28,191 nt of DNA, from the IMG/VR virus record IMGVR_UViG_3300032334_002673, positions 1-28,191 of that record. One strand, written 5' to 3'. A program made the position numbers and the translations under genes. Under the pieces are notes generated by a model. It worked only from the letters and a program-made list of their open reading frames with translations. It did no database searches and was not told the DNA's origin. Origin of the DNA: a virus. Below are positions 1 through 28,191 of the stretch, piece after piece. The first letter of the stretch is position 1. Every line of letters starts with the position of its first letter.

Positions 1-123
1 CCTTGTGAACCAGTAATACCTTGAGTACCTTGTGAACCAGTAATACCTTGAGTACCTTGTGAACCAGTAATACCTTGAGTACCTTGTGAACCAGTAATAC
101 CTTGAGTACCTTGTGAACCAGTA
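1..123 (-). repeat. 27-bp perfect tandem repeat within the collagen-like gene
   Basis: Four full copies (1-27, 28-54, 55-81, 82-108) and a 15-bp partial copy (109-123) are identical. Each copy encodes nine residues, G-T-Q-G-I-T-G-S-Q on the minus strand. The array begins or continues beyond the left edge. At 124-135 the collagen register is interrupted by a two-residue unit (G-T). Perfect identity at synonymous positions suggests recent expansion by slippage or recombination. Confidence 0.95.
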
Positions 124-2102
124 CCTGTTGTTCCTTGAGCTCCTCTAGATCCTTGTAATCCCTGAATTCCAGTCAAACCTTGTAACCCATTAGCACCAGT
201 TGTTCCTTGGATACTGCCATCTATTCTGGTGTCTACCCATTGGTAGGAATTTCCATCATACAAATAGGTATATTCTATTCCACTGTTAAGATTGAACCAC
301 CTATCTCCCAAAGAAGGCGAATCTGGCACTGCATCAGAGTATGTAAAAAGCCCAGATCCTTGTATTCCTTGTAAACCTTGCGATCCAGTAATTCCTTGTA
401 AGCCAGTATTACCTTGTATACCTTGTGATCCATTAGAGCCTTGAGTGCCACTAGTACCTTGACTTCCCGAAGTTCCGTTAGATCCTTGAGCTCCAGACGT
501 ACCTTGAGTTCCTTGAGAGCCATTGATTCCACTAGTTCCTTGTGAACCATTAATACCTTGAGTTCCTTGTAACCCAGTAGTTCCTTGTCTTCCCTGTAAG
601 CCTTGGGTTCCTTGTGATCCGTTTCCTCCACCCCCACCTTGACTGGATATTATTATTGTGTCGCTAACAGGGTCATAAGTAAAAGACACACCAGACCCAG
701 CCGCTAATTGTGTCGTCAGGTTTACATCTCCCCCAAGTCCCTGTAAACCTTGAGTGCCTTGAATACCTTGGGTTCCTTGAATACCTTGTGCTCCAATATT
801 ACCCTGTGTTCCCTGTAAACCGGTAGAACCTTGAATGCCTTGAATACCCTGTGTACCGGTTATACCTTGAGTTCCTTGGGGGCCATCGACCCCTTCATAT
901 CCATTAATGCCTTGTGGTCCAACAAGACCTTGAATTCCTTGGATACCTTGTGAACCTGTAGTGCCTTGCAATCCATTAGTGCCTTGTGAACCATTAACAC
1001 CTTGAGACCCTTGAGTGCCTTGAGATCCAGAGGTACCTTGTCTCCCTTGTATGCCTTGGGTGCCTTGTGCTCCGTTTCCTCCACCACCACCTTGGCTTGA
1101 TATTGTTATTATGTCACTTACAGGATCATAATTAAAAGACACACCAGACCCAGCCGCTAATTGTGTAGTGAGGTTTACATCTCCCCCAAGTCCCTGTAAG
1201 CCTTGATTTCCTTGAATGCCTTGGGTGCCTTGAGTTCCTTGCGAACCACTAAAGCCTTGAATACCTTGTAATCCATTAAAACCTTGAATGCCTTGCGATC
1301 CAGTAACGCCTTGAATACCTTGTGATCCATCAACACCCTGTGAACCAGTAGTGCCTTGTGACCCATTGACACCTTGTGATCCATTAATACCTTGTAGTCC
1401 TTGAATACCTTGTGAACCATCAGCTCCCTGAGATCCAAAAATACCCTGTAGTCCTTGAATACCTTGATTGCCTTCAAGACCTTGAGATCCAGTTATTCCT
1501 TGAATGCCCTGAATGCCTTGGTTGCCTTGAATACCTTGTAATCCATCAAAACCTTGGATACCTGTAATTCCTTGAGAGCCTTCTAACCCTTGGACTCCAG
1601 ATATTCCTTGGCTACCAGCAATTCCTTGTGATCCATCTAATCCTTGAATTCCAGAAAATCCTTGAACGCCTATTGTGCCTTGGCCACCTTGCTGGCCTTG
1701 GATTCCTTGTATTCCTTGTGTTGGTGCTCCTTCTGCCCCACTTGAAAACTTTATAAAATTTAAATTTGTTACATTTAAATTAATAGGGTCTCTTGTTGAA
1801 AGTATCCAAATAGTACCTGTATTAATCGTTCCTTCTTCTACAAGTACGATTAGGCCACAAGTTACTTTTATATTTTCATTTGCATCATTTGAACGAACCC
1901 AATTACCATTTTTTACTACATATATTCCATTTTGATTAGAAGAATTTTGGTTCTTTACTAATATTCTGTCTCCTATCGACAAAGAAACTTCGTCGATACT
2001 TTGTACTCCTGACAAAGTGATATTTGTGGTCGTAGCAGCCCGAACAGACTGTTTAAAGTCTAAATTAGATACTGCTGAGTTCTCTACATAAGAATTTGGC
2101 AT
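1..2102 (-). CDS. Collagen-like tail fibre protein (C-terminus beyond window)
   Basis: An open frame starts at ATG 2102 and stays open to the left edge, giving about 700 residues. Residues 1-120 form a fibre-type head module with a QSVRAATT-like segment, a VSLSIGDRILVKNQ segment and an NGIYVV segment, as in many phage tail fibres. From about residue 122 it is Gly-X-Y collagen-like with Gln very frequent (GIQG, GSQG, GTQG). Three globular interruptions break the repeats. Two are near-identical DVNLTTQLAAGSGVSF modules at 1074-1203 and 621-750, and the third carries a GDRWFN...GIEYTYLYDG motif at about 210-355. Collagen-type repeats form trimeric rods, so this is probably a long fibre or whisker used in host attachment. 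No clear Shine-Dalgarno precedes the ATG. Repeat content makes the opposite and shifted frames look open; these are shadows. The exact role is inferred. Confidence 0.85.
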   Translation of the reverse strand, partial: MPNSYVENSAVSNLDFKQSVRAATTTNITLSGVQSIDEVSLSIGDRILVKNQNSSNQNGIYVVKNGNWVRSNDANENIKVTCGLIVLVEEGTINTGTIWILSTRDPINLNVTNLNFIKFSSGAEGAPTQGIQGIQGQQGGQGTIGVQGFSGIQGLDGSQGIAGSQGISGVQGLEGSQGITGIQGFDGLQGIQGNQGIQGIQGITGSQGLEGNQGIQGLQGIFGSQGADGSQGIQGLQGINGSQGVNGSQGTTGSQGVDGSQGIQGVTGSQGIQGFNGLQGIQGFSGSQGTQGTQGIQGNQGLQGLGGDVNLTTQLAAGSGVSFNYDPVSDIITISSQGGGGGNGAQGTQGIQGRQGTSGSQGTQGSQGVNGSQGTNGLQGTTGSQGIQGIQGLVGPQGINGYEGVDGPQGTQGITGTQGIQGIQGSTGLQGTQGNIGAQGIQGTQGIQGTQGLQGLGGDVNLTTQLAAGSGVSFTYDPVSDTIIISSQGGGGGNGSQGTQGLQGRQGTTGLQGTQGINGSQGTSGINGSQGTQGTSGAQGSNGTSGSQGTSGTQGSNGSQGIQGNTGLQGITGSQGLQGIQGSGLFTYSDAVPDSPSLGDRWFNLNSGIEYTYLYDGNSYQWVDTRIDGSIQGTTGANGLQGLTGIQGLQGSRGAQGTTGTGSQGTQGITGSQGTQGITGSQGTQGITGSQGTQGITGSQ
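621..750 (-). repeat. Duplicated fibre insert module, copy A
   Basis: This 130-bp segment is nearly identical to 1074-1203. It encodes a Gly-rich stretch, then in the other direction a DVNLTTQLAAGSGVSF core and a YDPVSD turn between collagen stretches. Differences between copies are scattered substitutions with no change of length, so the two arose by an in-frame duplication of module plus flanking collagen. Confidence 0.85.
1074..1203 (-). repeat. Duplicated fibre insert module, copy B
   Basis: Partner of the 621-750 segment. It has the same length and order: GGGGGNG linker, ITISSQ or IIISSQ strand, YDPVSD turn, SGVSF, and DVNLTTQLA core. Such short beta modules between collagen blocks are common in phage fibres and may lock trimer register. 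Confidence 0.85.
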
Positions 2103-8056: not shown

Positions 8057-8797
8057 TTAATCGTGTATCTGAAGTGCACTTTTTTCTGAAATGTATGTGT
8101 TTTCGCCAAAGGCAAGTTCGAACCAAATATTGTATATTCCTAAATCCATTTCAGTAGTGTCTAGAAAGTAATAAGCATACATTTTTTCACGATATTCCAC
8201 GAGTTGCCGATCTACTATAAGCCTTAAGTCTTGCTCGGCGGGCAAACAATCACCGCAAGCAATTTCTATTGAAACTCTAATATCCGAGACTATGGCGAGA
8301 TTTTCGTAATAGGCTTGTAGATCGGCTCCTCGTGGAACATTAGGCGTAATTTGTATTAATAGGTATCTTTTCGTACCTTTTCTTATTCTATTTGGTCTAA
8401 AGTTAAAGTTAAAATCATATATGGGAGGGGCAGAAGTTGTAAACCACAAATTAGAATATAATTGAAAATTATTTACTATTGTGCCAATGCAGTCATCCCC
8501 GTCTTCAAACTTGACTGTCCAGCGATCAATATAATTTCCTATGCAGTAATCAGGACTATTAGTCTGAATCTGTAGCAAATACTGACCAGTTTCTTCCTGA
8601 ACTACATTGGTCCCAGATATCTCCTCTATCAGTCTTAGTCCATCTGGATTAGTAGCTGAAATTTCTGAAGAATCCAAAACAAATATTTCTACTTTTTGTA
8701 TCTCTTCTACGTTTTTTCTATTGTTGCTATTATAAGTAAATAGCCTAAGATTTATTTGATCTCCAACTGTAGGATTTTGATATCTTTCTTTTGCCAT
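8057..8797 (-). CDS. Virion structural protein, unassigned
   Basis: The 246-residue protein starts at ATG 8797 behind AAGGAAATAGTAA. It is beta-rich: VGDQINLRLFTY near the start, KVEIFVLDSSEIS, GQYLLQIQT, DRWTVKF, and YNIWFELAFGENTYISE at the end. This looks like repeated beta-sandwich domains of phage structural proteins. There is a YDFNFNFRPNRIRKGTKRYLLIQI stretch in two pieces around residues 127-150. It directly follows the gp26-like chaperone and its frameshift extension, in the baseplate/tail operon. A baseplate or tail-associated function is inferred from location only. Confidence 0.6.
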   Translation of the reverse strand: MAKERYQNPTVGDQINLRLFTYNSNNRKNVEEIQKVEIFVLDSSEISATNPDGLRLIEEISGTNVVQEETGQYLLQIQTNSPDYCIGNYIDRWTVKFEDGDDCIGTIVNNFQLYSNLWFTTSAPPIYDFNFNFRPNRIRKGTKRYLLIQITPNVPRGADLQAYYENLAIVSDIRVSIEIACGDCLPAEQDLRLIVDRQLVEYREKMYAYYFLDTTEMDLGIYNIWFELAFGENTYISEKSALQIHD

Positions 8798-8800
8798 TTA

Positions 8801-9037
8801 CTATTTCCTTCTTGACTGCGCCTTTTTTCTTGAGGATTCCATTGCTTTATTTTCTTCTTCTTTTTGCTGTATGAATCTTTCTATCATCCACCTCCTCATG
8901 TTCAGAGGTAGTTTCATAGATTTCTCCATATCTAGATGCATGTGGTATTGAAAGAAAAAAACCTCTTCAGCTAAACCGCCCCAAAGGTCTAAGCTTGGGT
9001 TACCCCCTTCCTTCGTCGCGGGAAGAAAAAATTCGCT
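8801..9037 (-). CDS. -1 frame extension of the gp26-like chaperone (frameshift product)
   Basis: This frame is open from 9037 (just after a TGA) to TAG 8803-8801 and has no ATG, GTG or TTG start before ATG 8941. It overlaps the 3' end of the gp26-like gene in the -1 frame and contains the slippery site at 9025-9031. Slippage there would add 74 residues to residue 349 of the chaperone, giving about 423 aa. The extension includes LDLWGGLAEEVFFFQYHMHLD split by eye, then MKLPLNMRRWMIERFIQQKE and a basic tail. That pattern (YH, PL, R-W, QKE) is typical of second reading frames in tail-assembly chaperones. If not frameshifted, a 46-aa product from ATG 8941 is the alternative. Confidence 0.7.
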   Translation of the reverse strand, partial: SEFFLPATKEGGNPSLDLWGGLAEEVFFFQYHMHLDMEKSMKLPLNMRRWMIERFIQQKEEENKAMESSRKKAQSRRK

Positions 9038-10071
9038 TCAAGAGGAAGATCTATTCCGAATTCTGCAAAGCACGAAGGACAAACAATTTGTATATTTGTA
9101 TCAACACCAAAAGGAGGTTCATTAATGCAATTTCTAATGTAAGAAACATCATTAATTGGAAGGTTCTTTAGTAGAACCTGAAGCTCATTTTTGTTTGTAA
9201 TTCCATCGATATCATTTAGCAAAGCTGCTGTTCTAAAAGTCAAGGTATCATCTGCAGAAGCATCACCGAATGCCTTGATTCTTCTATCTCTATGGTCATT
9301 TATATCTTGTTCATCTCGACCAGTTGATAGTCTATAAGAGAAAGGCAACTTGGTGGTAGGAAGAGTGTCCTGCAATTCTGGACCGTAAGAATCCGGGCAG
9401 CTTTCAACGTATAAAGCATTTAGGTCTAAGGTTGTGCTAAACTTTGTTTCACACTCTGGACACTTAATCTCTACATCGTATTTTGGACTGTAGGATATAC
9501 CTCTAAGGTATATCAATAAATATGTTCTATCTATTGTTAGTAGATTTTCTGGTTTGAACTGATTGCCTTCTTTAAGGCACTTCTGAAAAATCATATTTAT
9601 CGCCTGACCTTTTCTTACAAACCTAGGAGTTGCCAAAATTTGTTCTTCCTCACCAGTCATGGGTCGAATAGAAACAACGCCATCCGCTGGTCCACTTTCA
9701 CCGTCATAGAATTTACCCTTAGAAGGTAATTCTATCTCTTCATATACAGCGTTGGAGTTTCTAATTACTTCAAGAAGTTCTTTTAGATGATCACTATTTG
9801 TTTGGCCTCCTCTTCTTTCAAAACTTTTCATTGTTCCTTCGTCTTGTGGGCCCATGTTTCCAAAACCTTTCTTAGGCTCAGTGCTTTCGCCGCTAGCAGC
9901 CTTTAAAACTTTTTGAAACTCCGCAGGGATATTTCCTTTAATCTGTACCTGTGATTCTCCTACTGGTCGAGTTTCTTGTCCTGCTTCTTGAGCAAGCTGT
10001 TCTCTTACTGAATGAGCCTCATTCATTTCTTCTTGTCCTGGTTTTCTGGGTCGAAAAGTTTCATCAGCCAT
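8989..10071 (-). CDS. 26: Baseplate hub assembly chaperone, T4 gp26-like
   Basis: The 360-residue protein starts at ATG 10071 behind AAAAGGAGAAC. The first 90 residues are polar and disordered. The core starts at YEEIELPSKGKFY (110-122) and continues SIRPMTGEEEQIL and GISYSPKYDVEIKCPEC. Two CxxC pairs (C204/C207 and C331/C334) suggest a split zinc ribbon. It ends with LPLEANFFFPRRR, as in gp26-like proteins. T4 gp26 (208 aa) assists hub and tape-measure assembly; this version is longer because of its N-terminus and insertions. At residues 347-349 (AAT TTT TTC) lies a canonical U UUU UUC slippery site, with an open -1 frame downstream. Confidence 0.75.
   Translation of the reverse strand: MADETFRPRKPGQEEMNEAHSVREQLAQEAGQETRPVGESQVQIKGNIPAEFQKVLKAASGESTEPKKGFGNMGPQDEGTMKSFERRGGQTNSDHLKELLEVIRNSNAVYEEIELPSKGKFYDGESGPADGVVSIRPMTGEEEQILATPRFVRKGQAINMIFQKCLKEGNQFKPENLLTIDRTYLLIYLRGISYSPKYDVEIKCPECETKFSTTLDLNALYVESCPDSYGPELQDTLPTTKLPFSYRLSTGRDEQDINDHRDRRIKAFGDASADDTLTFRTAALLNDIDGITNKNELQVLLKNLPINDVSYIRNCINEPPFGVDTNIQIVCPSCFAEFGIDLPLEANFFFPRRRKGVTQA
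9025..9031 (-). other. -1 ribosomal frameshift slippery heptamer U UUU UUC
   Basis: On the minus strand the sequence is T TTT TTC, in phase (AAT TTT TTC) with codons 347-349 of the gp26-like gene. This is the X XXY YYZ form used for -1 frameshifting. It lies in the only overlap where the -1 frame is open, 34 nt before the zero-frame stop codon. A run of five G (9003-9007) follows about 18 nt downstream; I see no strong pseudoknot by eye. Confidence 0.75.
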
Positions 10072-12564: not shown

Positions 12565-13452
12565 GTGAAAAAAGATTTAGCTCCTTTAAGAAATGTTCTC
12601 CAATGGAAAAAGCCATGGGAAGGCAACTGTAGAGTTAAGCCATGGGAATATAAAATAACTGCTGTGGTTCCTTGTTTAGATACATTTGAACAACTAGAAA
12701 TTTGTGTAAATCTTTTAAGGCTACAAACAGAAAAGCCCTACATAATTGTCATTGATACAGGTAGTTGCGAAGAAGAATATAAAAAAATAGAAAATCTTAG
12801 AGACGAAGACTTAGAAGTTCATTGTCTTAGGTTGAATGGTGTTCTGCATCCTTCTGATTTCCCAGCTATTGCTATGGATTTAGCATTTAGTGCTTGTAGG
12901 ACCGAGTATCTATTTGCCACACACGCAGACTGTTTTTTAAGAAATAAAAACTTTTTGCAAGAATTAATTGATTTATGTATTAATTATTCTCCTGTAGTAG
13001 GCTATGAAATTAGTCCTAGGCTGCATGAGGATTGGCACGGGATGGTATCACACACAGCAACTATGTACCACATGCCAACAATGGACAGAATAGGTTATGG
13101 CTGGAGTTTAAGAAGGTTATCAAATTACTACAATATTAAAGACTATAGTCCCTCGCCAGGCAGGCCCGGTTGGCCGGACACAGAGATTTTAGGCAACTAC
13201 ATTCTTAGAAAGAATAATATTAAACCTCATTTAATAGGTGGAGAACCAAATTTTAAAAGAAAAATAGATGATAACATAGACCATTTTCGTAGTTTCACTA
13301 GTGGTAAATTATACAGTCAACCACACTATGAAAAAGCAAAAGATTGGTATCTTGATGCTAGAAACCAAGCTCTTCAAAGGATAGAGAATTGGCAACGTGA
13401 AGAAGAATATAATTTAAAGTTTAAGGAGCTTGATGTCAACAGAATATCTTAA
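12565..13452 (+). CDS. Glycosyltransferase-like protein, GT-A fold
   Basis: The start is GTG 12565 after ATAGGGTAAAAA. The 295-residue protein shows a GT2-like start ITAVVPCLDTFEQLEICVNLL at residues 31-51, read in two parts, then IIVIDTGSCEEEY (60-72) and LFATHADCFL (116-125). D122 of H-A-D is in the metal-binding position. Later there are aromatic and Trp-rich stretches (EDWHGMVSH, SPGRPGWPDTEI, IGGEPNFKRKIDDNIDHFRS) that often form acceptor sites. The substrate is unknown. It overlaps the late sigma gene by 20 nt, so both are probably coexpressed. Confidence 0.7.
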   Translation: MKKDLAPLRNVLQWKKPWEGNCRVKPWEYKITAVVPCLDTFEQLEICVNLLRLQTEKPYIIVIDTGSCEEEYKKIENLRDEDLEVHCLRLNGVLHPSDFPAIAMDLAFSACRTEYLFATHADCFLRNKNFLQELIDLCINYSPVVGYEISPRLHEDWHGMVSHTATMYHMPTMDRIGYGWSLRRLSNYYNIKDYSPSPGRPGWPDTEILGNYILRKNNIKPHLIGGEPNFKRKIDDNIDHFRSFTSGKLYSQPHYEKAKDWYLDARNQALQRIENWQREEEYNLKFKELDVNRIS

Positions 13453-13981
13453 TAACAAAACATTCGAGAGGTTAATTGTTAAATTTCAAAGTTCCAAGAG
13501 GGAAAAGCTAAAGTACCAACTATTAGTCGAAGATATAAAACAGACTGAAATACGTACTATTAAAAGAGAAAAATACAAAAAGCCAGAACCATGGTTTAAT
13601 GTAGAAAAAAAATATACTATACTTAACCTAAACTATCAGGATGTTCAAAAAGAACTAGCAATAGCATTTTATACACTGTCCGAAAACATCGTAAGGTACG
13701 CCAAATTTAATTTAATAGATCAAGATGATGCAATACAAGAAGGTGTAATGATCTGCTTCGAAAAAATAGATAGATTCGACCCACAGAAGGGCAAAGCTTT
13801 TAATTATATGACAACATGTATTTTAAATCATTTTAGACAAATGTATAGGACTGCTAGAAATTACAATGAACTTAAAAAGAAATATTTAAATTTTGTTCAA
13901 ATGCAGTTTGACAAACAACTTTCTATTAATAGCAATAAAAAAGGTATATACAAAAAACATAATATATCATCTGATGCTTGA
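13433..13981 (+). CDS. 55: Late-transcription sigma factor, T4 gp55-like
   Basis: I choose ATG 13433, with TTAAGGAGCTTG upstream, over an in-frame TTG at 13430. The 182-residue length matches T4 gp55 (185 aa). The region at about 68-140 is sigma region 2-like: LAIAFYTLSENIVRYAKF, QDDAIQEGVMICFEKIDRFDP and KAFNYMTTCILNHFRQMYRTARNY (each in parts). This is the segment that contacts the RNA polymerase clamp and the -10 element. gp55 recognises TATAAATA, and an exact copy exists at 3592. The basic N-terminus and C-terminus fit DNA contact. It lies downstream of a glycosyltransferase gene and before a small conserved gene. Confidence 0.8.
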   Translation: MSTEYLNNKTFERLIVKFQSSKREKLKYQLLVEDIKQTEIRTIKREKYKKPEPWFNVEKKYTILNLNYQDVQKELAIAFYTLSENIVRYAKFNLIDQDDAIQEGVMICFEKIDRFDPQKGKAFNYMTTCILNHFRQMYRTARNYNELKKKYLNFVQMQFDKQLSINSNKKGIYKKHNISSDA

Positions 13982-14036: not shown

Positions 14037-14288
14037 ATGAAGAAAGACATATTTGAACAATTTGAGAATCAAGAATTAATACAAAAGCTTATAGACAATG
14101 GATATGGGAGCCTTGTAGACGCTTTTTTATCAAACGACAACAAGGTCTATACGAAAAAAGGTAGGTTGAATAAGAGTGGAGCTTGTAGGGTTTTAAAATG
14201 CAAACCCAAAGATTTAGAAGATGCAATACTTGCTTGTCAAGATTTACTAAAAAAAGAACTTTCTTTGGAAGAAGAGAAAGAAGACTAG
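14037..14288 (+). CDS. Small conserved phage protein (83 aa)
   Basis: ATG 14037 follows a GGAG 12 nt away. The protein reads MKKDIFEQFENQELIQKL, a VYTKKGRLNKSGACRVL core (residues 37-53), then CKPKDLEDAILACQDLLKKE and an acidic end (EEEKED). The GRLNKSG core looks like a helix-turn-helix-type or nucleotide-contact module and appears conserved among phages I recall, but without known function. It sits 55 nt after the gp55-like gene, and its stop overlaps the convergent tail tube gene by 4 nt. A transcription accessory role is a guess. Confidence 0.55.
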   Translation: MKKDIFEQFENQELIQKLIDNGYGSLVDAFLSNDNKVYTKKGRLNKSGACRVLKCKPKDLEDAILACQDLLKKELSLEEEKED

Positions 14289-14812
14289 GCAGGAAGTATG
14301 TAAGCACGGTCATATCTAATTGTCAGGTCACAAGTCACCAGCTCACTTCCTGACATATCCAATTCGCCAAATTCTATGTTTTGAGGCCAAGCATTTTCAA
14401 AAATCCAAGTTTCTATTATTTCACCACAACCATCATATAGCTCTAGTCTTGCTTCTTTTTTAAACCCGTCACAGGATGGAACATAAGTTTCACCTTGTGG
14501 ATCATAAATTCCTTTTAGCCATTCAAAAACAGGATGAAGAGGTTTTTTTATATCATATAGGGAAATTGTAATGGGTTTCCACTCAGGTTTACCGGGAAAA
14601 TATATTGTTTCGTTTATATGCTGAGCTTCCAACTCTTTAAATGATATGGATGGCCTAGCTCCTTTATAGGGTGGCAATGCATTTACTTTATCTTGTGGGC
14701 TACTTTGGTCTCCCATGACTTCATCTATACTAAACAACCATCTATTTTTTCTTTTAAAACATACTGTATCACTCTCTAAACCGAAGTCAAAACCCATATT
14801 ATCTCGTGCCAT
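14285..14812 (-). CDS. Tail tube protein paralogue 2, T4 gp19-like
   Basis: The 175-residue protein starts at ATG 14812 behind ATGGAGAATT. It matches the gp19 pattern: CFKRKNRWLFSIDEV at 18-32, RPSISFKELEAQHINET, WKPITISLYDI, ARLELYDGCGEIIETWIFEN, and WPQNIEFGELDMSGSELVTCDLTIRYD in pieces to the end. The same blocks occur in the 14897-15535 gene, so the two are paralogues. gp19 hexamers stack to form the inner tube of the contractile tail. It lies beyond a predicted terminator from the first tube gene, so it may be made at lower level, perhaps as a specialised ring or cap. Length is close to T4 gp19 (163 aa). Confidence 0.75.
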   Translation of the reverse strand: MARDNMGFDFGLESDTVCFKRKNRWLFSIDEVMGDQSSPQDKVNALPPYKGARPSISFKELEAQHINETIYFPGKPEWKPITISLYDIKKPLHPVFEWLKGIYDPQGETYVPSCDGFKKEARLELYDGCGEIIETWIFENAWPQNIEFGELDMSGSELVTCDLTIRYDRAYILPA

Positions 14813-14896: not shown

Positions 14897-15535
14897 TTAC
14901 TTTGTGCAACCGTCGCAGCAAGGATTGACAGAACCGCTGCAGAAACCAGTCCACTTGACTTCACTGTATCTTAGTGTGAGTTCGATTGTTACCTCTTCTG
15001 AAGAAGAGTAATCTAGTTCACCGAAGTTTACAGCTTGTGGCCACACACGATCTAGCTGCCAATTTTCTAAGTTATTTCCGCAACCGTCGTATAGGTCAAG
15101 GAACGCAGTTGCGGAGTAACCACCACCATTACCCGATCTTCCACCACCGCCACGTTGGCCGGGGAGTGAAGATTGTGAGTAAGGTACTCCGTTGTTTGTA
15201 AAGTTGTATGTTGTTGCAAGCCAACTGTACAAAGCTGTAACTCCGTCTCTCGAATCATTTCCTGAAAGGTCATAAAGGGTAACTGTAATTGTTTCCCAGC
15301 TAGCTTTACCTGGAATCCACATCTTTGAATTCAAGAAATTAATTTCTGTTTCTTCAATTGTTAGATTTGGTCTTGAGGCTAGCTTGACGAAGTATGGAGG
15401 GATTTTGCCAGCATTGCAGTTTGTCTCAATGGATAGCGTCCATCTATACTTCCTCTTAAAGAGCACATTATTTCCACCTAGGACATCCATACCCATGTCC
15501 TGTAGGTTTGATTGCTTTTGATAATTATTGGGCAT
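14897..15535 (-). CDS. 19: Tail tube protein paralogue 1, T4 gp19-like
   Basis: The 212-residue protein starts at ATG 15535 with AAAGGAG upstream. Shared gp19 blocks: VLFKRKYRWTLSIET at 24-38, RPNLTIEETEINFLNSK, SWETITVTLYDL, FLDLYDGCGNNLENWQL, VWPQAVNFGELDYSSSEEVTIELTLRYS in parts. Compared with paralogue 2 it has an insertion at about 112-141 that is Gly-rich (GGGGRSGNGGG), and a Cys-rich tail (C199, C206, C207, C210). It lies directly after the sheath gene, the usual place for gp19, and is followed by a terminator, so it is probably the major tube protein. Confidence 0.8.
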   Translation of the reverse strand: MPNNYQKQSNLQDMGMDVLGGNNVLFKRKYRWTLSIETNCNAGKIPPYFVKLASRPNLTIEETEINFLNSKMWIPGKASWETITVTLYDLSGNDSRDGVTALYSWLATTYNFTNNGVPYSQSSLPGQRGGGGRSGNGGGYSATAFLDLYDGCGNNLENWQLDRVWPQAVNFGELDYSSSEEVTIELTLRYSEVKWTGFCSGSVNPCCDGCTK

Positions 15536-23585: not shown

Positions 23586-24590
23586 TCATTTAGCGGCTTC
23601 TGCGGCTATTAAACAGCCTCTTGCCACTGAGTAAAGCGGATCATCCGGCTTAATTATTTCTCCCACCTTTATTGGTAGGTTTGTTTGAACCATAGCTTCT
23701 CTAAACATTTCTGCGAAACCATTAGGAGAAGAAGTTCCACCCGCAATAACCACATCAATAGGAGAGTCTGTTCTAACTGTTTTATTTACATCAGCAAAAC
23801 CTTTTTTTATCCCTCCAACGGTGTGTTCTATCATTAATCGGTATTGGGTGGCTATAGCTCTTTCTACTAAGCTATTAGGTGCTCTTAATAGGTCAACTTT
23901 TGTTTTTTCAACATTTATATAAGCTATAGTTTCACCTGTGGCTTTAGCAGCCTGTCTATCTATCCAGTCTCCTGAGTTTACAATTGAAAAAGAAAATACA
24001 GGGTTTCCATACATTGCATAGCAAACGTTAACCATGCCAGCCCCACAGCTTACTCCTATTCCTGTAAATGCTTTCTTGCCTAACTCTGCATAAACCAGTG
24101 CTAGAGCCTCATTGATTGGATGTGCATCTACTCTATATCCCGTTTCGCTTTTATAAGCTTTGAATATAGCTTCCAATATTCTTTGGTGGTAATCTGCGTC
24201 TGTATCTTGATTAATAGCATTTGCAGGTACGCAGTAATACAAAGTTTCACCATCTTTTTTAACATTGTTTATTAAACTGTGTATCATTATTGACATTATT
24301 TGGAAAGCATCTTTTTCTTTTGGGTTAACGCATCCATGTATCATGGGTCTTTTTAACTCAATTTGGCTCATTGTATAAGCCATATTCACTGCTGCCTCGC
24401 CAAGGGCATAAGCCACATTATCCCTTTCTATAAGTGGGACTCCTGCACTTTTCATCATGTTAAATACGAATCTATTGTCTAGTGGAATTTCTAAGAATGC
24501 GTTTACTTCTCTTTTGTAAGTAAAATTTCCATCATTAGACCTGTTGCAACAAACTAAGTTGTAAGTACCGCAATCAAAACCGCATGGCAT
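23586..24590 (-). CDS. Actin/Hsp70-like ATPase
   Basis: ATG 24590 has AAAGGAGAATTATT upstream. The 334-residue protein follows the sugar-kinase/Hsp70/actin ATPase layout: phosphate-1 loop FDCGTYNLV (5-13), connect-1 INEALALVYAELG (159-171, as the NEPTAAALAYG of Hsp70), phosphate-2 loop GIGVSCGAGMVNV (177-189), adenosine motif VVIAGGTSSP (280-289) and connect-2 YSVARGCLIAAE (320-331). The Asp that normally starts the phosphate-2 loop is Ser here. It has no substrate-binding domain, so it is closer to MreB/ParM-type proteins. It may form filaments or act as an assembly ATPase. It sits amid virion-type genes, which is unusual. Confidence 0.75.
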   Translation of the reverse strand: MPCGFDCGTYNLVCCNRSNDGNFTYKREVNAFLEIPLDNRFVFNMMKSAGVPLIERDNVAYALGEAAVNMAYTMSQIELKRPMIHGCVNPKEKDAFQIMSIMIHSLINNVKKDGETLYYCVPANAINQDTDADYHQRILEAIFKAYKSETGYRVDAHPINEALALVYAELGKKAFTGIGVSCGAGMVNVCYAMYGNPVFSFSIVNSGDWIDRQAAKATGETIAYINVEKTKVDLLRAPNSLVERAIATQYRLMIEHTVGGIKKGFADVNKTVRTDSPIDVVIAGGTSSPNGFAEMFREAMVQTNLPIKVGEIIKPDDPLYSVARGCLIAAEAAK

Positions 24591-27125: not shown

Positions 27126-28191
27126 TTACTTAGGATTGCAAGGAACTATTGCTACGCATTGTGCATTTCCATCTTCACCGGTGATTCTTCCTATATCTAA
27201 ATTTATCTTTACATCTATTGGAGCGCCCTTATAAACTAGTTCTACTTCTGGTTTTTCTGGAAGTACTAATTTAATTTCTGAAGGTGCTCCTGTAAGTTCT
27301 ATTGCCGAAGGTATTCCTACTACCTGAATCTTTTCAGGTATTCCAGAAGTATCAAGTTTAATTGTTGGGAATGATTCTGGCACCTCTATTGATATTGATT
27401 TTGGCAACCCAGATGAATCTATTGCTATCGACTTTGGTATGTTAACTGCTATCAAATCAATACTTCTAGGTAAATCATCTGAAATTATACGTATCTCAGA
27501 TGGAATTGCTGGTCCTATAATTTTTATATCTGGTATCTCCGGCACAGAAACTCGAATTATTGATGGTATATCGTGAATTACACGAATGTCTGGTACGTCT
27601 GGGAACTTAATTATTATCTCAGATGGTATATTAAATCCTACATCTAAATCAAGCGATTCAGCTTCTGGGCTTAAATCATTAGGATCAATATTAGAATTGG
27701 ACCTGAAACCTCCTCCTTGTGGACAAACTAAGTTCACGGTGCACGTCAAATCTGGAGGTGGTGCAAACTTTACTGGTGGTATTGTCACTGGTGGTATTGT
27801 TACTGGTGGTATTGTTATTGGTGGTATTTCTACAGGTGGTATGGTTATTGGTGGTATTGTTATTGGTGGTATATTAATAGGACTCAAATTTATGGGTGGT
27901 ATATTAATAGGAGTCAAAGTTACAGGTGGTATCTCCACAGGTGGTATTGTTATTGGCGGTATTGTTATTGGCGGTACGTTTATTGGTGGCACAGTTATTG
28001 GTGGTACATTTATTGGTGGTATAGTTATAGGTGGTATTTCCACTGGAGATATCGGTGGTATGTTTATAGGTGGTATTGTTACTGGAGGTATATTTACTGG
28101 TGGTACATTAATAGGCGATATTGGTGGTATAGTTACGGGCGGTATCTCTACAGGTGGTATGTTTATTGGTGGTACAGTTATTGGTGGTACG
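27126..28191 (-). CDS. IPPxx pentapeptide-repeat virion-type protein (N-terminus beyond window)
   Basis: The frame is open to the right edge; the GTG at 28043 is an internal codon. About 355 residues are visible. The first about 140 residues are a run of about 29 pentapeptides, I/V-P-P-I/V-[TNE], as IPPIT, VPPIN and IPPVE. Two units are octapeptides (IPPISPIN, IPPISPVE), and two have LTPIN or LSPIN. Then comes DLTCTVNLVCPQGGG, followed by about 170 residues of a looser repeat with I-P-S/K-x-I-x-I (IPSEIIIKF, IPSIIRVSV, IPSEIRIIS). It ends with CVAIVPCNPK. The two C-x5-C motifs may pair. It could be an extended rod, perhaps poly-proline II, on the virion surface. Not a family I know. Confidence 0.6.
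   Translation of the reverse strand, partial: VPPITVPPINIPPVEIPPVTIPPISPINVPPVNIPPVTIPPINIPPISPVEIPPITIPPINVPPITVPPINVPPITIPPITIPPVEIPPVTLTPINIPPINLSPINIPPITIPPITIPPVEIPPITIPPVTIPPVTIPPVKFAPPPDLTCTVNLVCPQGGGFRSNSNIDPNDLSPEAESLDLDVGFNIPSEIIIKFPDVPDIRVIHDIPSIIRVSVPEIPDIKIIGPAIPSEIRIISDDLPRSIDLIAVNIPKSIAIDSSGLPKSISIEVPESFPTIKLDTSGIPEKIQVVGIPSAIELTGAPSEIKLVLPEKPEVELVYKGAPIDVKINLDIGRITGEDGNAQCVAIVPCNPK
27769..28191 (-). repeat. 15-bp degenerate tandem repeat encoding IPPxx
   Basis: Units of ATT/GTT-[AC]-T-GG-T-GG-T type, seen on the plus strand as GGTGGTAT(T)GTTA, repeat every 15 bp from about 27769 to the right edge and beyond. Two 9-bp steps change the phase. The pattern is visible directly in the sequence. 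It would be prone to copy-number change. Confidence 0.9.

Follow-up and report, generated by a model that had tools for sequence, protein, structure and literature searches.

A predicted -1 frameshift in the gp26-like putative tail-assembly chaperone gene of an uncultured phage, with the homologous extension in the +1 frame of a sister branch

Does the gp26-like gene of an uncultured phage encode one protein or two? The question is raised by the 3' end of this gene in IMG/VR record IMGVR_UViG_3300032334_002673, whose full 28,191 nt constitute the window analysed here. The first-pass annotation, based on the sequence alone, had placed an in-frame U UUU UUC at residues 347-349 beside an open -1 frame and proposed that ribosomes slipping at this site add a C-terminal extension. 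The features concerned are as follows.

10071..8989, minus strand: gp26-like gene for a 360-aa protein with two CxxC zinc-ribbon halves, the putative short chaperone form (TAC-N; lambda G analogue)
9031..9025, minus strand: slippery heptamer T TTT TTC, read in the 0 frame as AAT TTT TTC (N347 F348 F349)
8989..9037, minus strand: stretch shared by the 0 frame and the open -1 frame, where 0-frame synonymous difference drops
8801..9026, minus strand: -1-frame extension of 74 codons plus stop, putative T domain, gp51-like, with a Lys/Glu-rich tail
8801..10071, minus strand: predicted frameshift product of 423 aa, putative long form (TAC-NC; lambda GT and T4 gp51 analogue)
8939..8941, minus strand: earliest -1-frame ATG, a start that is not conserved

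The geometry originally proposed is reproduced in full. The stop codon of the gp26-like gene occupies 8991..8989, and the -1 frame, bounded by TGA at 9040..9038, is open from 9037 to TAG at 8803..8801, overlapping the 3' end of the gene by approximately 40 nt. Post-slip reading in the -1 frame would begin near 9026, and the computed fusion joins 349 and 74 residues into the 423 aa previously stated. As had also been claimed, the -1 frame of the window contains no ATG, GTG or TTG before 8941, and the ATG at that position lacks a well-spaced ribosome site in the window sequence. A scan of all 36 ORFs of at least 100 aa on both strands, for heptamers of the form X XXY YYZ in the last 60 nt, found that the gp26-like gene alone pairs such a heptamer with a -1 frame continuing for over 30 codons beyond the gene's stop. 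Another T TTT TTC occurs within the -1 frame itself (8951-8960, minus strand, read GTT TTT TTC); it is probably a chance occurrence because it is absent from relatives. Directly after the frameshift ORF lies a 246-aa ORF (8057-8797, minus strand) with no Pfam match and a non-significant best PHROG match (E = 0.17), and a gene with a similar start occupies the corresponding position in LR756511, a huge-phage genome of 595 kb.

Assignment of the short form to the zinc-ribbon, gp26-like proteins of the T4 superfamily, also part of the first reading, is supported by its two CxxC halves and by matches to PF12322 (E = 6e-18, 65.7 bits vs a curated cut-off of 24.5) and phrog_150 (baseplate hub, E = 4e-21). 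An AlphaFold model of the window gp26 (pLDDT 81) matches models of gp26 from phage SP-15 (E = 4e-20) and Aeromonas phage 25 (E = 4e-6), indicating that the predicted fold is common to the window protein and T4-type gp26. A fold search of the PDB with the window model gave no significant match, to a solved chaperone or otherwise, with HK97 gp13 (2OB9) at rank 12 and a non-significant E of 3.9, and solved structures searched by sequence returned weak matches only, to zinc fingers and one enzyme.

Scanning viral contigs recovered 61 loci with 49-73% identity. In every one of these close relatives with a readable gene end, the heptamer is in phase some 35-50 nt upstream of the stop. The -1 frame of these loci opens immediately ahead of the heptamer, or still earlier, and runs far beyond the 0-frame stop, encoding a conserved tail with the pattern FFLP..EEG..PSL.LW..LAEE.FFFQYHLHLDM..SM.LPIN.RKWMIERFI.QKE.EN.AMEA. 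T TTT TTC is present in 36 of 36 dereplicated close relatives, against an expectation of about 0.10 per independent sequence calculated from codon usage within these genes, and a search for loss of the heptamer found no case in the window's clade. Its TTT and TTC are the sole columns without synonymous variation among 116 conserved degenerate columns of the clade, while at conserved Phe positions other than the FFF stretch TTT and TTC are freely mixed. Because it is unchanged across dozens of relatives, the slippery site is almost certainly real. That the heptamer fell by chance next to a -1 ORF that is decayed or unrelated can be given practically no credence: we found no point in its support, and the homologues refute it both by this conservation and by the selection tests that follow.

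Among close relatives, 0-frame synonymous difference drops from an upstream value of 0.82 to 0.50 in the segment from the heptamer to the stop. Past the 0-frame stop, pN/pS is 0.28 in the -1 frame vs 1.2-1.5 in the other two frames, and across the first 14 -1-frame codons beyond that stop, up to which 56% of relatives have no possible -1-frame start, it is 0.20. These values indicate purifying selection on the -1 frame in segments for which a start codon is missing from most relatives. They bear directly on the alternative in which no frameshift occurs and the downstream frame is a small gene of its own, translated into a free gp51-like protein by termination-reinitiation at an internal ATG. 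Public records do annotate it in this way (SP15_046, RW251112_010, 121Q_595), and two phages have arrangements that suit such a gene. In Cygsa01 (L093:1780-1982) the heptamer is lost and an ATG that overlaps the gp26 stop (TAATG) opens the gp51-like frame, so that frameshifting may have been lost there, and phiM9 combines T TTT TTG with an overlapping ATG. However, the first -1-frame ATG falls at a varying residue, 14 to 37, across relatives, and a search for a conserved start belonging to the downstream frame found none in the window's clade. Moreover, constraint on the frame already applies ahead of any start, and a separate gene gives no role to the strict synonymous conservation of the heptamer. 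We consequently regard this alternative as very unlikely.

Slippage of RNA polymerase on the T run, giving mixed mRNAs and hence a transcriptional shift, would draw on the same six-T run and is, in our estimate, slightly less probable still. Six T is short for polymerase slippage. In addition, the C that closes the heptamer is retained in 32/32 and 73/73 dereplicated sequences, even though a TTT codon there would be synonymous and make the run longer; tandem tRNA slippage is the better fit to this pattern.

Ribosomal -1 frameshifting is also the reading to which more distant relatives point. The expectation that heptamer and phase are conserved in homologues held across very distant lineages, with the window gp26-like protein being only 21-25% identical to jumbo-phage and cyanophage members. 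Among 19 loci from jumbo and huge phages, 17 carry T TTT TTC and two T TTT TTT, the latter being those of jumbo phages XacN1 and RAS14. The heptamer with an open -1 frame was found in jumbo phages RaK2, 121Q, Atu_ph07, Phosso, XaC1, Vibrio 2.275.O, Hallingskeid, Munch, CBB, GAP32, PA5oct, SCTP-2, XbC2, Kaldavass and SNUABM_19, in LR756511, and in Aeromonas 65.2, OLIVR6 and cyanophage S-RIM8. All 80 cyanophage-type contigs have the heptamer (76/76 after dereplication with S-RIM8), here one codon ahead of the stop, and its two codons are the sole invariant ones in 59 columns. The -1 frame is open and conserved in each complete locus checked in the window-clade, cyanophage and jumbo groups. None of the public records of relatives that were compared annotates the joined product; most give the -1 frame as a separate hypothetical protein or a hub-assembly catalyst, or omit it.

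A sister branch carries the extension in the +1 frame. It comprises SP-15, LIS04, GXN1, immuto, Mel-JY01 and approximately 100 viral contigs (including L196-L307, L063-L065 and L067-L069), and shares with the window the short form, the extension and the Phe-Phe site, differing in the direction of the shift. Profile comparison of the window clade's extension with those of two +1 groups gave 97.8% and 98.2%, and of the short forms of the -1 and +1 clades 99.9-100%; on these sequence profiles both the short forms and the extensions are homologous, and the shift maps to the same Phe-Phe codons. The first +1 group has TTT TTT followed by TGG, TAC or TAT in 67 of 70 dereplicated members, and the second mostly TTY TTT followed by C. 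In 93 of 95 cases the +1 sites are TTT TTT T or TTT TTT C and have a base other than T in front, such that a T before the Phe pair is found in 2/95 of the +1 branch against a background of about 0.4, and in 137/137 dereplicated sequences of the -1 groups. A +1 shift is preferred here over a -2 shift because the base before TTT TTT would bar re-pairing two bases back. One exception inside the branch, L268, reads TTC TTC TGG at the end of its gp26 ORF (match end ~2247); it lacks a canonical heptamer, and its extension is in the -1 frame.

In the tree, a starred branch places the SP-15 group nearest to the window's clade, and the +1 rows form two groups, likewise starred. Repeated switching of direction, which this split could imply, was set aside because an AU test does not reject a single common +1 clade (p = 0.44), and for the same reason we claim only one switch. 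Recoding direction has thus likely changed at least once within one chaperone family, as judged from a window clade predicted to shift -1 and nearest sisters predicted to shift +1 that avoid the preceding T with which slippage by -1 would be possible.

Taken together, we consider it very probable that -1 frameshifting at T TTT TTC yields a short (TAC-N) and a long (TAC-NC) tape-measure chaperone, in the manner of lambda G and GT. Both the slippage and its rate are what we infer from the observed site, its phase and conservation, and the selection on the -1 frame. Most ribosomes would read to the stop of the gene and produce the 360-aa short form, with a minority reaching U UUU UUC with tRNA-Phe in the P and A sites and slipping one base backward, so that UUU UUC re-pairs as UUU UUU; 74 further codons would then complete the 423-aa long form, which would be made at a constant, low proportion. 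Many short copies may coat the tape-measure protein, as in lambda, and the less numerous long copies may use their additional C-terminal domain to recruit tail-tube subunits, after which both forms would leave. A stem-loop or pseudoknot stimulator was rejected: downstream RNA of the window was not unusually stable (z = 0.19) and that of its clade weakly so (mean z = -0.45), and an alignment of 25 cyanophage sequences showed no consensus base pair downstream, with stability being stronger in cyanophages (mean z -1.53). An upstream Shine-Dalgarno stimulator is not conserved in the window's clade, being absent or short in most members; matches of 4-5 nt occur upstream in all 73 dereplicated cyanophage loci.

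The proposed function of the window gene, a phage tail-assembly chaperone, is inferred from homology and gene position. Tail-assembly chaperones canonically lie between the tail tube and tape measure genes. This is where gp26 is found in SP-15, LIS04 and immuto, with a tape measure or a putative large tail protein gene on the far side, and in Mel-JY01, where it precedes a large unnamed gene. In the window, tail-tube genes lie 4 kb from the gp26-like gene, and no tape-measure gene was recognised within the 28-kb record. T4 gp26 and gp51 are hub-assembly chaperones (PMC3004832), gp51 being a gp26-family protein with a C-terminal extension. Cyanophage fusions align with T4 gp51 end to end (97.7%, 236 columns), and the cyanophage -1 tail alone with its C-terminal extension (95.8%); the window-clade tail shows no direct match to the T4 gp51 tail (1%) and is linked to it solely through intermediates.

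Several other genes of the window were recorded. The tail-tube genes are two adjacent ones (14285-14812 and 14897-15535, minus strand), both phrog_4542, and represent a duplicated tube protein. An actin-like protein (23586-24590, minus strand) matches Volactin (PF25216, E = 3e-70), a family known from archaea that here lies in a phage contig. A sigma-70 region 2 protein (13430-13981, plus strand; PF04542, E = 3e-7) is possibly a T4 gp55-like late sigma factor. A collagen-like ORF with GxQG repeats (700+ aa, 3-2102, minus strand) and, where the contig ends, an ORF with IPPI/VPPI repeats (27126-28190, minus strand) were also present.

The locus would thus supply a second, unannotated protein for an uncultured phage lineage and, by extension, for the huge and jumbo phages that bear gp26, and lends support to a tape-measure-chaperone role for a gene called a baseplate hub subunit in databases. 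The +1 sister branch would offer a natural test of how the direction of a recoding site can change while its product is kept.

T4-type tail-assembly chaperones were identified by Vladimirov, Gautam and Davidson in 2022 (Virology 566:9-15, as cited in PMC10885494 and PMC12846349), and according to these later papers, poly-T sequences in T4-like TAC-N genes are known -1 signals (PMC12846349) and some T4-like phages pair a short gene with a fused long one (PMC10885494). Going by these papers, frameshifting in T4-type chaperone genes is already known in kind. The spread of the site to jumbo phages and the +1 branch of SP-15, immuto and Mel-JY01 are possibly new, as a limited literature search found no report of either. 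A review by Atkins et al. (2016) describes G-T frameshifting as widely conserved, T4 excepted, and gives a -2 frameshift for the tail chaperones of phage Mu (PMC5009743). The first-pass annotation had likened the locus to both lambda G/GT and Mu gp41/gp42: Mu resembles it as a contractile-tail chaperone pair with a frameshift but differs in the -2 shift, whereas the G/GT layout stands and is backed by gene order in cultured relatives. As in lambda, the predicted -1 slip lies near the 3' end and would add a C-terminal domain to a minority of the product. The window gp26, a two-half zinc-ribbon protein, nevertheless has no detectable sequence relation to lambda G/GT, and the lambda slip site, G GGA AAG, is unlike T TTT TTC. 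With T4-type gp26/gp51 the window shares both the family (PF12322/phrog_150) and the pair of short and long forms, although its protein belongs to a far lineage with an N-terminal extension of ~110 aa, and the two forms that T4 encodes as paralogous genes would here come from one gene with a predicted frameshift. The pattern across the family suggests that in T4 a second gene took the place of frameshifting, as has already been proposed in the literature for T4-like phages.
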